Assembly: GCA_027078675.1 (NCBI GenBank)
Contig: JALWWX010000214.1
Location: 1-40,738 of the forward strand
DNA: 40,738 nucleotides
Source: Aquificales bacterium
Lineage (GTDB): Bacteria > Aquificota > Aquificia > Aquificales > Aquificaceae
Reading direction: 5' to 3'
Shown: positions 26,969 to 30,818 of the stretch, piece after piece
Position numbering within the stretch: the first letter of the stretch is position 1
Layout of the letters: each line of letters begins with the position of its first letter
Notes under the pieces: model-generated
What the model was told of the DNA's origin: nothing
The model's database searches: none
Seen by the model: the letters and a program-made list of their open reading frames with translations, nothing else
Position numbers and translations under genes: made by a program

Positions 26969-27430
26969 CTACAGCTTCTCCGCCTGGAGTTTGTAAAAGC
27001 CTTCTCTTAAACCCTCGGGTATGTACCAGTCCCTCAGCCCTTTGAATCCCGCCCTCATTAAAACCTTCCCCATTCTGCTCTCCTTAGGATCCCCTCCCTT
27101 AGCCAAAAAATTTAAGGTCTCCCTGTCTTCCCAGTATTCAACAAAGATCCTGCCTCTACGCGGTATATTCTCATATATTAACTTATAAATAAGTAATTCA
27201 ACGGGTGAACCAAAAAACCTTCTATCAACTTTAAAAATCTCAACCCACGGTTTATAATAAGCACCCCTCCCTTTAAATACCTTAGCACAAAAAATATGCT
27301 CTCCTCCCCACCTAACACAAACATTCTCCTCCTCAACAAATCTACCCTTACTTCTGTGATAAATCTTTAAAATATCGTTCCCAACATACACCCCCTCCTC
27401 AAGAGCCTCAACAAACCCCTCAATCGCCAT
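26969..27430 (-). CDS. Uncharacterised 153-aa protein (possibly DUF1122/GNAT-like)
   Basis: A soluble protein with no signal peptide. It has a mixed fold with VRWGGEHIFCAKVFKGRGAYYKPWVEIFKV, then SPVELLIYKLIYENIPRRGRIFVEYWEDRETL, and ends GFKGLRDWYIPEGLREGFYKLQAEK. The order of strands and helices, and the closing arrangement with a late bulge, resemble acetyltransferase-like proteins, and I suspect DUF1122, but no acetyl-CoA loop is clearly visible. The ATG is 8 bases after a TATAGT -10. Single gene, divergent from the PLD-HerA gene. Confidence 0.55.
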   Translation of the reverse strand: MAIEGFVEALEEGVYVGNDILKIYHRSKGRFVEEENVCVRWGGEHIFCAKVFKGRGAYYKPWVEIFKVDRRFFGSPVELLIYKLIYENIPRRGRIFVEYWEDRETLNFLAKGGDPKESRMGKVLMRAGFKGLRDWYIPEGLREGFYKLQAEKL

Positions 27431-27444: not shown

Positions 27445-27574
27445 ATTTGGGTTTTCCCTTTTTAAAATGATATGGATTTTGTTTTTATTTGTACACATAC
27501 CCGTTAAATAACCGCTATAACAGTTAAAATATTAGAAGAAACGACCAAAAACTCCATTTTAGAGGGGTAAAGGG

Positions 27575-29536
27575 ATGAAACTTCTCACAAGCGACAACAT
27601 ATTCAACCAGATTACGGAAATAGTCAGATCCGCCCAAAAAAACATGAAAATAGCATCCGCATGGATAAAAGGTAAGTACTTTGAAGATATCCTTGATATT
27701 GCAAAGGAGAAAAACATACCCGTAGAGATCATATTAAGAGCCTCCGAGTTTCAAGATTTGATCATCACGGATGACAGGGTGTTCAGAAAGATTCAGGAAG
27801 CGGGCGGTAAAGTATATCTCTGCAACAGACTGCATGCAAAATTTATAATTGTTGACAATAAAAAGGCTGTGGTAGGTTCCGCAAACTTCACCGAGGCGGG
27901 CTTATCTGATATTTCTAAGGGAAACATAGAAGCGGGCGTATTTTATGATAGCTCCGACGGAGAAGAAGAGATAGAAAAACTTATAAGCTACTTTGAAAGT
28001 ATAAAAGAAAAACATTCACATGAATTCGGAAATGATCTGCTCGGTTTTACCCTCAATCCTGTAAAATCCCATTCCTTTGAATTCATCCTTATCGATGAGG
28101 ATGTAAGCGAGCAGTCTTATGTTGAGATAAGATTGAATGAGGGTAAAGTTCTTGCAAGGGTAACAAGTATATACGCCTACGATACGGGATTTTTTGCAAA
28201 TCCTTTTACTTCCTATGAATCTCCAGTTTTTGCACCCCTTGAAGATTTCAAAAAGATATTCTCGGATGACAAGGACAAAGAATGGAAAAAATCCGCTGTT
28301 TACGCATATATAAGCGGAAACGGGAACAGAATGAAGGTGGGCACAGCGGAAGTGGTGGGCATTATAAAGGAAGGACAGCTTGATATGGTTAAAAAACCCT
28401 TTGATGTGGGCGAGGGTGTATATAAGGTCTCAGAGGAAACTCTTAATCTACTAATGAAAAAAACCTCATCGGGAAGAGATATGATCATCCCGGTTAGGGT
28501 AGGAAAGCTTGAGGATTCGGATATTGATGTTTTTGTGGATGGTAAAGAGGTAGTTAATAAACACATGCTGATAATAGGAACAACGGGTTCCGGGAAAAGC
28601 TACTTCGCAAAACTCTTCTTATGCAGACTTGTTCAGGCGAGTGAGGATGTACAGGTTTTTGTATTTGATCCTCACGGGGAGTATTACAACGATCTGGTGG
28701 ATTTCTTGGACGGTGATAGTCTTATTGAACATGTAATTTTTGAAGATACACTTTTCCCTATTTATGCGGAAGAAATAACAGGATTGATCAAAGATGCAGG
28801 CTTCGGAATCCTTGTAAGCGGGAATTCTAATCATGCAAGGGAGAACAACTCTAAAATCTCAAAGGTAGTTAAGCCATCCCTTAAATTAACCGGCTTTTCT
28901 TCTAAAAACCTTCTGTCCGTTGTCTCAAGTTTATCTACGGGTAATTCGGGAATAGAAATTAATGAACTTACGGAATATCTTAAAAACATTTGGGGAGAGT
29001 ACACCCTTTCAAGTCAACCTGCAACCATTGATAGGATTGAAAAGGGCTTAAGATCGGACAAGAGATTAATTATATTCAACTTTAAACATATAACGGATCC
29101 ACAAACAAGAGTAAACATTGCGGGCTTAATAATGCAAGAGCTTTTTAATGAAAACAAAAGGACATTAAAAAACAGGATTGTCGTTTTGGAAGAGGCACAC
29201 AACTTCGCTCCCGAAAAGGGATACGGAGATGTATCCTCCGGCAGAGACAACCTCGCCCTTAATATGGCAAAGAAAATAGCATCAGAGGGAAGAAAGTTCA
29301 ATCTCGGATTAATTACAATAACCCAAAGACCTGCCCAGGTAAGCAAATATGTTCTCTCACAAATGAACACTCAGGCAATGTTCAGAACAATGAACAGCTC
29401 TGACCTTGATACCATCTCCACCTATGTTGAATATACGGGAAATGATATAATCGGTATCCTCCCTTCACTTCCGACGGGAACCGGTATAATAAGCGGCATG
29501 GGAGTGCCATTTCCCGTGGTGGTGGGGGTGGGGTAG
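27575..29536 (+). CDS. PLD-family nuclease fused to HerA-like ATPase
   Basis: A 653-residue two-enzyme fusion. Residues 1-150 are a phospholipase-D-type nuclease half: H87-x-K89-x4-D94-x6-G101-S-x-N104 (LHAKFIIVDNKKAVVGSANFT), with E120 following; one HKD motif is present, so it should act as a dimer. Residues about 165-310 look like a HAS-barrel/beta region. Residues 320-650 are a HerA/FtsK-type ATPase with Walker A GTTGSGKS (335-342), FDPHGEY and Walker B IVVLEEAHNFAP (E539, E540). HerA forms hexamers that thread DNA for nucleases, so this should be a DNA-translocating nuclease. The Shine-Dalgarno is good (GAGGGG and AAAGGG upstream). It stands alone on its strand. A NurA protein, the classic HerA partner, is encoded at 36163. 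Role in repair or phage defence is inferred. Confidence 0.88.
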   Translation: MKLLTSDNIFNQITEIVRSAQKNMKIASAWIKGKYFEDILDIAKEKNIPVEIILRASEFQDLIITDDRVFRKIQEAGGKVYLCNRLHAKFIIVDNKKAVVGSANFTEAGLSDISKGNIEAGVFYDSSDGEEEIEKLISYFESIKEKHSHEFGNDLLGFTLNPVKSHSFEFILIDEDVSEQSYVEIRLNEGKVLARVTSIYAYDTGFFANPFTSYESPVFAPLEDFKKIFSDDKDKEWKKSAVYAYISGNGNRMKVGTAEVVGIIKEGQLDMVKKPFDVGEGVYKVSEETLNLLMKKTSSGRDMIIPVRVGKLEDSDIDVFVDGKEVVNKHMLIIGTTGSGKSYFAKLFLCRLVQASEDVQVFVFDPHGEYYNDLVDFLDGDSLIEHVIFEDTLFPIYAEEITGLIKDAGFGILVSGNSNHARENNSKISKVVKPSLKLTGFSSKNLLSVVSSLSTGNSGIEINELTEYLKNIWGEYTLSSQPATIDRIEKGLRSDKRLIIFNFKHITDPQTRVNIAGLIMQELFNENKRTLKNRIVVLEEAHNFAPEKGYGDVSSGRDNLALNMAKKIASEGRKFNLGLITITQRPAQVSKYVLSQMNTQAMFRTMNSSDLDTISTYVEYTGNDIIGILPSLPTGTGIISGMGVPFPVVVGVG

Positions 29537-29568
29537 AAAAAGTTGTCACCTTTGTTTTATAAAGAAAA

Positions 29569-29583
29569 GTTCTTATATAAAAC
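29569..29583. promoter_or_regulatory. Operator-like palindrome, copy 1
   Basis: GTTCTTATATAAAAC matches the consensus GTTCT-N5-AGAAC with one mismatch in the right arm. It is the most distal of three copies upstream of the ATPase gene, 32 bases from copy 2. Confidence 0.5.
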
Positions 29584-29600
29584 TATAACCATTGTTAACA

Positions 29601-29615
29601 GTTCTTTTATAGAAC
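29601..29615. promoter_or_regulatory. Operator-like palindrome, copy 2
   Basis: GTTCTTTTATAGAAC, both 5-base arms perfect. It lies just upstream of the -35 box of the ATPase gene and 41 bases from copy 3 (about four helical turns). A GTTAAC palindrome sits between copies 1 and 2. Confidence 0.6.
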
Positions 29616-29622
29616 AAAATAC

Positions 29623-29651
29623 TTGAAAAACCGGAAAAATAGTTCTATTAT
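29623..29651 (+). promoter_or_regulatory. Promoter of the ATPase gene at 29658
   Basis: TTGAAA (29623-29628), a 17-base spacer and TATTAT (29646-29651), ending 6 bases before the ATG. Transcription should start on the A of the ATG, giving a fully leaderless mRNA. The -10 lies inside palindrome copy 3, so a bound protein would block RNA polymerase. Confidence 0.65.
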
Positions 29652-29656
29652 AGAAC
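29642..29656. promoter_or_regulatory. Operator-like palindrome, copy 3, over the -10 box
   Basis: GTTCTAT-T-ATAGAAC is a perfect palindrome with 7-base arms. It covers the -10 element and ends 1 base before the ATG. This is the geometry of a repressor site for autoregulation. Confidence 0.65.
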
Positions 29657-29657
29657 C

Positions 29658-30818
29658 ATGAACCTGGAAGAAGTAATCACCTTAGTGGAAGAGACTCACC
29701 AGAGACTAAAACTCTCCTTGCCCGAGAGAATAAGACCTTTATACGATAGTGTTGAGATCGAGAAGATTAGAACAGCCATCGTTTATGGTCAGAGAGGAGC
29801 AGGAAAGACAACCTTTTTGCTTTATAGATCAAGGAATAAACCCTTTCTTTACCTATCCGCTGATAATCCCTTAGTAGTAGCTTATCCTCTCTACGAGGTT
29901 GTCAGAGAGGTTTTCAAAAGGGGATACGAGGGTATAATAATCGATGAAGTTCACCTCGCTAAGGACTGGAGCTTACACTTAAAAGCTCTTTACGATGATT
30001 ATCCCGATAGATACATCTGGGCAAGTGGAAGCAGCAGTCTTTTGATAAAGAAAGGCGTAGCTGACCTTTCCCGAAGATTCGTCCAGATAAGAATCCCTCT
30101 TATGTCTTTCAGGGAATTCCTCTATCTGAAAATGGGTATTCTTCCTGAGCCAGTGGATATATTCAATGTTAAAGAGGAAAATCTTAAGTTAGTAAGAAAG
30201 ATAAATGTCCTTAGGCTGTTCAGGGAATACATAAGCTCGGGAACTAGACCCATTTTCTTTGAAGGGGAGTACTGCAATAGAATCCAAGGGGTAATTGAAA
30301 AAACTATATTCTACGACATTCCTTTCTACCTTCCTTCAATCCAGGGTAACCACCTGAGGCTGATGAATGCAGTGATCGGACATATTATAAGTTCTCCTAT
30401 CCCTACAGTGAACATATCTAAGCTCTGCAGTGAATGGCACATAGGTAAAGAAAAACTTTATCAGCTCCTGAGCATAATGGAAGCGGTTGAGCTCTTGAGA
30501 ATTGTAAGAAGAAAGGGAGATAAGAACGTTTACTCAAAAGGAGCTAAGATGCTGATAAATGACCCTTCTGTTTACTACTGCCTTAACGGTAATCTCGGTA
30601 ATGCAAGAGAAGCTTTAGTAGTATTTACCCTTTCCGAAAGGTATGAAGTCTACGCAAGCCAGAGGGAAGAAGACTACGACTACCTTGTAGATGGCAAGAA
30701 GATAGAAGTAGGCGGTAAGAAAAAAGATACTAAATCCGCTGACTATGTTATAAGCGATGATTTGGAACTTCCAGTAAGAAACAGGCTCCCCATGTGGCTC
30801 CTGGGGATGGTGTGGTAG
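29658..30818 (+). CDS. AAA_14/DUF4143 ATPase with nuclease-like C-terminus
   Basis: A 386-residue protein. The N-terminal P-loop domain has Walker A GQRGAGKT (44-51), Walker B IIIDEVHLAKDW (D96, E97) and a sensor WASGSSS, the AAA_14 arrangement. A winged-helix-like middle follows (VNISKLCSEWHIGKEKLYQLLSIMEAVELLRIV). The C-terminal DUF4143 domain carries EDYDYLVDGKKIEVGGKKK, a D...E-x-G-x-K pattern like PD-(D/E)xK nucleases. Family members are common in accessory regions, and most have unknown roles. The winged helix could bind the palindromes over its own promoter. The start follows a leaderless promoter. The MQHS-type TTG start at 30898 belongs to the next gene's frame and is not used. Confidence 0.82.
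   Translation: MNLEEVITLVEETHQRLKLSLPERIRPLYDSVEIEKIRTAIVYGQRGAGKTTFLLYRSRNKPFLYLSADNPLVVAYPLYEVVREVFKRGYEGIIIDEVHLAKDWSLHLKALYDDYPDRYIWASGSSSLLIKKGVADLSRRFVQIRIPLMSFREFLYLKMGILPEPVDIFNVKEENLKLVRKINVLRLFREYISSGTRPIFFEGEYCNRIQGVIEKTIFYDIPFYLPSIQGNHLRLMNAVIGHIISSPIPTVNISKLCSEWHIGKEKLYQLLSIMEAVELLRIVRRKGDKNVYSKGAKMLINDPSVYYCLNGNLGNAREALVVFTLSERYEVYASQREEDYDYLVDGKKIEVGGKKKDTKSADYVISDDLELPVRNRLPMWLLGMVW

Follow-up and report, generated by a model that had tools for sequence, protein, structure and literature searches.

The PLD-HerA gene and its surroundings

The window, meaning the whole stretch of 40,738 nucleotides of Aquificales DNA analyzed here, contains a gene whose product combines a PLD-like nuclease domain, a HAS barrel, and a HerA-type ATPase (Table 1) and is called PLD-HerA in the following. 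The initial annotation had placed an HKD motif and the HerA Walker A and Walker B motifs in one chain of 653 residues at this position, which is borne out by the open reading frame, its frame, and the Pfam matches. The matches to PLDc_2, the PLDc active-site motif (E = 1.5e-6), the HAS barrel, and DUF87 all exceed their gathering cut-offs, with the PLD domain (PF13091) scoring 58 bits against a cut-off of 27. Each chain carries a single HKD motif. The HAS barrel falls under the Pfam cut-off in one homologue of family f4.

The HerA ATPase region spans approximately residues 307 to 650, as HerA profiles of non-Pfam libraries reach about residue 650. R573 and Q584 are predicted from their positions to be the arginine finger and the sensor glutamine, respectively. 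The features of the HerA branch of HerA/FtsK translocases, namely the DUF87 core, Walker A and B, R573, Q584, and the HAS barrel, are present, and the protein is the sole HerA-like protein found in its own genome. Its C terminus lies directly after the last core strands, whereas solved HerAs run 20 to 50 residues longer; because of this shorter end, the C-terminal hook by which DUF4297-HerA subunits are connected may be absent from PLD-HerA. A promoter and terminator scan performed no better than on shuffled sequences.

Table 1. Coordinates of the PLD-HerA gene, its domains and motifs, and other features of the window.
Feature	Position	Strand	Evidence or remark
DUF1122 family protein	26969-27430	-	
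Intergenic site, 105 bp	27467-27571	.	replaced in congener G001 by ~10 kb with BREX type 4 (DNA alignment, PADLOC)
PLD-HAS-HerA fusion protein, 653 aa, clade A	27575-29536	+	ORF, translation, Pfam, purifying selection
PLD-like nuclease domain PLDc_2, residues 15-143	27617-28003	+	Pfam E = 1.2e-15
HKD motif H87-x-K89-x4-D94-x6-G101-S102-x-N104	27833-27886	+	H87, K89, D94, S102, N104 invariant (62/62)
HAS barrel, residues 164-264	28064-28366	+	Pfam PF09378 E = 6e-7
DUF87 (HerA central domain, PF01935) with helical insertion, residues 307-522	28493-29140	+	Pfam E = 1.7e-24; genome search E = 5.8e-25
Walker A GTTGSGKS (K341)	28577-28600	+	K341 invariant (62/62)
Walker B IVVLEE (E539, E540)	29177-29194	+	both invariant (62/62)
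R573	29291-29293	+	3′ of Walker B; invariant (62/62)
Q584	29324-29326	+	3′ of Walker B; invariant (62/62)
Palindromic repeats	29555-29660		putative operator sites
AAA_14 ATPase, 386 aa	29658-30818	+	Pfam E = 1.3e-21; PADLOC PDC-S01 E = 1.5e-17
NurA nuclease gene, 317 aa	36163-37116	-	Pfam NurA E = 4e-6, above cut-off

The gene of an AAA_14 ATPase follows after a gap of 121 bp, in the same orientation. PLD-HerA had been described as a single gene beside an accessory ATPase, which corresponds to AAA_14. The two genes are neighbors only in G000 and the congener G002, and the AAA_14 protein shows 47% identity over its whole length to the product of a Parabacteroides plasmid gene, far from Aquificota, which suggests lateral transfer. 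Since it is conserved only in this congener and looks separately mobile, AAA_14 is probably not a fixed or obligate partner of PLD-HerA. Immediately 5′ of the AAA_14 gene, palindromic repeats (GTTCTATTATAGAAC and similar) with a spacing of 41 bp resemble operator sites. On the other side of PLD-HerA, a DUF1122 family protein is encoded beside the variable intergenic site.

Conservation, selection, and structural model

The residues listed as invariant in Table 1 are identical in every one of the 62 near-full-length homologues of the conservation alignment, in which identity goes down to ~35%. The initial annotation had named a lack of conservation of the HKD residues as an observation that would speak against it; the outcome is the opposite, and the arrangement of PLD and HerA in cis is both real and conserved. 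Identity to the counterpart in G002 amounts to 89% for the DNA and 93% for the protein, and a dN of 0.035 against a dS of 0.52 (dN/dS ~0.07) excludes a chance open reading frame. The PLD part is under the strongest purifying selection (dN 0.011, dN/dS ~0.04).

Structure models were calculated for the monomer. The first, built on 8 sequences, had an insufficient pLDDT of 60.7; the second, built on 31, reached 77.8 but is weak at residues 103 to 148 and 203 to 251. Herein, the ATPase is modeled confidently, with a pLDDT of mostly 80 to 96, and the PLD domain moderately to poorly (28 to 85). The best matches of this model in the PDB are chains of HerA-NurA and SIR2-HerA.

A profile of residues 1 to 300 matches PLD enzymes in the PDB, including the nuclease NucT (6ehi). 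Phospholipases D and mitochondrial cardiolipin hydrolase are among its matches as well, and phospholipases are part of the PLD superfamily, which would be compatible with a PLD domain that acts on lipid or RNA, or merely oligomerizes, so that PLD-HerA would not be a DNA nuclease at all. This we consider highly improbable: the single-motif PLD domain can be aligned with NucT over its own length and, weakly, with the NgoFVII restriction-enzyme family, the motor fused to it is a member of a DNA-translocase family, and the complete conservation of HKD and GSxN speaks against a purely structural role.

Comparison with known systems

As in HerA-NurA of archaea and Deinococcus, a HAS barrel and an FtsK/HerA ATPase core are coupled to a nuclease, and the closest structural match of the PLD-HerA model is the HerA chain of T. 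kodakarensis HerA-NurA. Unlike in HerA-NurA, the nuclease is of the PLD/HKD type and lies N-terminally in cis, and the ATPase forms a separate monophyletic branch. The NurA-linked HerA equivalogs NF040819 and NF040937 reach only 102 and 80 bits (cut-offs 970 and 800).

Sir2-HerA (Nezha) and DUF4297-HerA, likewise among the top structural matches, resemble PLD-HerA in joining a HerA motor to an effector, and in a HerA ring and an anti-phage role if the structure and function proposed below are correct. They differ in requiring two genes instead of one and in the type of effector, which is PLD here. The corresponding anti-phage equivalogs NF042943 and NF042944 are likewise not reached, with 102 and 77 bits (cut-offs 800 and 850).

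DndH and other HerA/FtsK capture systems also combine a nuclease and a motor in a protein directed against invaders, and are proposed to carry invader DNA to the nuclease (PMC10853773); the text of that article contains neither “PLD” nor “Aquif.” DndH, however, is far larger, with an REase nuclease and DNA-recognition domains, whereas PLD-HerA consists of PLD, HAS, and ATPase only. An HKD nuclease domain is shared with DrmC of DISARM, restriction enzymes of the NgoFVII type, and NucT, all of which lack the HerA motor that PLD-HerA possesses. The window protein matches DrmC in PADLOC (E = 4e-14) and in NCBIfam (E = 7.9e-12, 45 bits vs a cut-off of 133).

PLD nucleases and HerA motors are each well known in defense; what appears to be new is their occurrence in one chain. 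No publication describing a PLD-HerA fusion was found in the literature searched, outside of which lies the founding HerA/FtsK survey (Iyer et al. 2004) that could mention one.

Distribution and phylogeny

A combined PLD and HAS profile matches 78 of 136 Aquificota genomes, several assemblies being fragmented. The tree of homologues has two main groups. Clade A, to which the window gene belongs, comprises sequences of Aquificaceae (f1) and of the Desulfurobacteriaceae type (f4) with 49 to 93% identity to the window protein; clade B comprises f1 and f3 sequences with 35 to 41% identity. One divergent f2 sequence on a long branch joins clade A, its placement being unsure. A tree built from the ATPase region unites every PLD-HerA in one group (100/100), separate from the canonical HerAs that f3 and f4 possess. 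Owing to this monophyly, the simplest reading is one single fusion event with both halves joined since then, the deeper placement being unsure with such long branches. Viral, archaeal, and other distant HerA matches were rejected as relatives of the fusion, as all of them are without the PLD part. A scan of 84,980 species relied on exact peptide patterns, which reach close relatives only, and restriction to Aquificota is thus not proven.

On plasmids, the fusion was found only on ece1 of Aquifex aeolicus, where it is split into two genes that are annotated merely as DUF87 and ATP-binding protein. Further broken clade A copies are those of G113 and G084; some of the breaks could be sequencing errors. 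A candidate two-gene PLD and HerA system on a Treponema plasmid was rejected, the neighboring “ATP-binding protein” being a HATPase (GHKL) and not a HerA.

Genomic neighborhoods of clades A and B

Clade A occurs patchily, and its neighbors differ at nearly every site. The neighbors of the window gene itself are mostly housekeeping genes; the BREX type 4 system sits at the corresponding site of the congener G001, where its genes are divergent from PLD-HerA and are recognized by PADLOC as BrxP (E = 1e-216), BrxC (1e-93), PglZ (1e-39), and BrxL (3e-186). This BREX locus (L219:315-10143) contains an extra fragment of 198 residues between brxP and brxC that resembles the C-terminal part of BrxP. 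G001 was rejected as an example of a congener without PLD-HerA: its contig ends inside the gene, of which the first 130 bp are present with 98% identity, meaning an assembly gap.

Type III restriction-modification (R-M) and CRISPR genes are found beside other clade A copies; that thermophiles often carry both counts against reading such neighbors as a sign of a defense role. In G117, PLD-HerA begins with an ATG that overlaps the cas6 end, within a type III-A CRISPR run of Cas10, Csm3, Csm4, Csm5, and Cas6. Type III Mod and Res genes as well as rmuC lie near the gene in G115, a type III Mod gene follows 12 bp downstream in G015, and a decayed copy stands after a decayed type III R-M pair in G084. 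Genes of the McrB and McrC types lie directly downstream in G021, and the neighbors in G034, named by eye, are presumably integrase, AbiEii-like, and PIN/CopG-type genes. A conserved separate partner gene was not found in clade A, the effector being fused, and because the neighbors change from site to site, neither a partner nor a mark of self or non-self can be named.

Clade B, by contrast, is near-core in several genera and occupies stable sites within them. Its neighbors include genes that we take from their sequences to be obg, coaE, and dtd, which we regard as housekeeping. With PADLOC at a threshold of 1e-10, applied to three genes on each side for clade A and mostly two for clade B, 0 of 90 clade B neighbors were matched versus 58 families among 71 clade A neighbors. 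Definite defense systems adjoin ~5 of 17 sites in clade A versus 0 of 35 in clade B (Fisher p ~0.002, the sites not being fully independent), which amounts to an over-representation of clade A relative to clade B beside known defense systems. Clade B keeps the same catalytic residues, yet the defense context is absent.

The reading as a defense module put forward in the initial annotation is hence supported for clade A, with its BREX, CRISPR, R-M, and McrBC neighbors, plasmid and broken copies, and variable sites, but not for the family as a whole. The opposite expectation, a core gene with repair genes as neighbors, applies in part to clade B, which is near-core and stably placed but has housekeeping neighbors.

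As islands collect mobile DNA, they would also accommodate a clade A gene that belongs to mobile elements, for example as a pump for plasmid segregation or transfer, with the defense genes as fellow passengers. One copy lies on the plasmid ece1, an integrase-like gene is found near the copy of G034, and HerA/FtsK pumps act in segregation and conjugation (PMC10853773). Such a role is nevertheless very unlikely: ece1 is the only plasmid match and the gene is broken there, no relaxase or T4SS genes were recognized beside the clade A copies inspected by eye, and the invariant HKD residues favor use as a nuclease.

NurA and the absence of canonical HerA

The NurA gene of the window, which the initial annotation of PLD-HerA leaves unmentioned, lies 6.6 kb from PLD-HerA, and its presence bears on a further reading, by which PLD-HerA would be the motor of housekeeping HerA-NurA end processing, replacing a canonical HerA lost in Aquificaceae, with PLD as an extra or regulatory nuclease. 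Canonical HerA, defined as a long DUF87 match in a frame of 500 to 590 residues, was found in 0 of 64 Aquificaceae genomes versus 38 of 40 in f3 and 9 of 9 in f4, where it is almost always present together with NurA. NurA was found in 50 of the 64 Aquificaceae genomes and looks catalytically intact, retaining D55, E149, D168, and R305, which are invariant across 21 NurA sequences of Aquificota. Among Aquificaceae genomes with a completeness of 90% or more, NurA accompanies PLD-HerA in all 33 that carry the latter and is missing from 5 of the 9 that do not (Fisher p 1.5e-4, with no correction for ancestry); the 4 other near-complete genomes, however, encode NurA but no PLD-HerA. Genus g13 of f3 has PLD-HerA, obg, and nurA close together on one strand, only a few genes apart. 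This linkage was rejected as proof of a partnership and may be incidental, since obg and nurA are also adjacent where no PLD-HerA stands beside them.

Several points weigh against a NurA motor. The f3 and f4 genomes hold PLD-HerA on top of canonical HerA, the PLD domain in cis would occupy the face on which NurA docks, and the patchiness, plasmid location, and defense neighbors of clade A fit such a motor poorly. As an account of PLD-HerA it is therefore rather unlikely. It is a reading mainly for clade B and is not favored for clade A, given the mobility and defense context of the latter and the f4 clade A copies that occur besides canonical HerA and NurA. A division of labor, in which clade A is a single-gene translocating restriction nuclease joining BREX, type III CRISPR, type III R-M, and McrBC, and clade B a NurA motor that replaces canonical HerA in Aquificaceae with nucleases in cis and in trans, is distinctly unlikely in this complete form.

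Proposed function and mechanism

With moderate confidence, the window gene is predicted to encode a self-contained DNA-translocating nuclease for defense against phages or plasmids. The two halves kept as a unit, the purifying selection, the invariant residues, and the defense neighbors of clade A all count for a defense nuclease; as its close relatives adjoin known anti-phage systems, PLD-HerA is probably a one-piece machine that destroys phage or plasmid DNA. An activity has not been reported for any PLD-HerA member in the literature searched.

By homology, six chains would assemble into a HerA ring encircling double-stranded DNA, and ATP hydrolysis in the FtsK/HerA core would drive the DNA along the pore to the HAS face. 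The nuclease of DUF4297-HerA is docked on the HAS ring, opposite to the side on which the DNA enters (PMC11291478). Because the PLD domain is fused directly before the HAS barrel, the N-terminal PLD domains would sit on this face of the ring, replacing the separate NurA, Sir2, or DUF4297. With one HKD motif per chain, they would have to pair to form active sites, giving three per hexamer. The cycle would begin with DNA loading, continue with feeding powered by ATP, and end with cleavage at the exit. Candidate cues to foreign DNA are free ends, a modification status set by the neighboring system, and regulated expression. The gene appears to move as a single cassette among defense loci and may act with whatever system adjoins it.

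Two-gene defense HerAs require a second gene for the effector; with motor and nuclease in one polypeptide, PLD-HerA would be the simplest member of this group. Its origin from thermophiles should make purification and testing practical. The contrast between clade A, in defense surroundings, and clade B, at stable housekeeping sites, offers a natural comparison for a DNA motor moving between repair and defense. Moreover, the retention of NurA in Aquificaceae without canonical HerA poses the testable question of what drives NurA there. In addition, long NurA-domain proteins, mostly in frames of 548 to 607 residues, occur sporadically beside HerA-like proteins of 596 to 664 residues (G120:C47, G117:C2, G082:C34, G104:C233, G087:C43, G078:C1:32 kb, G110:C144, and G028:C1:367 kb); these pairs are possibly a second, patchy NurA-HerA module, which may also serve defense.
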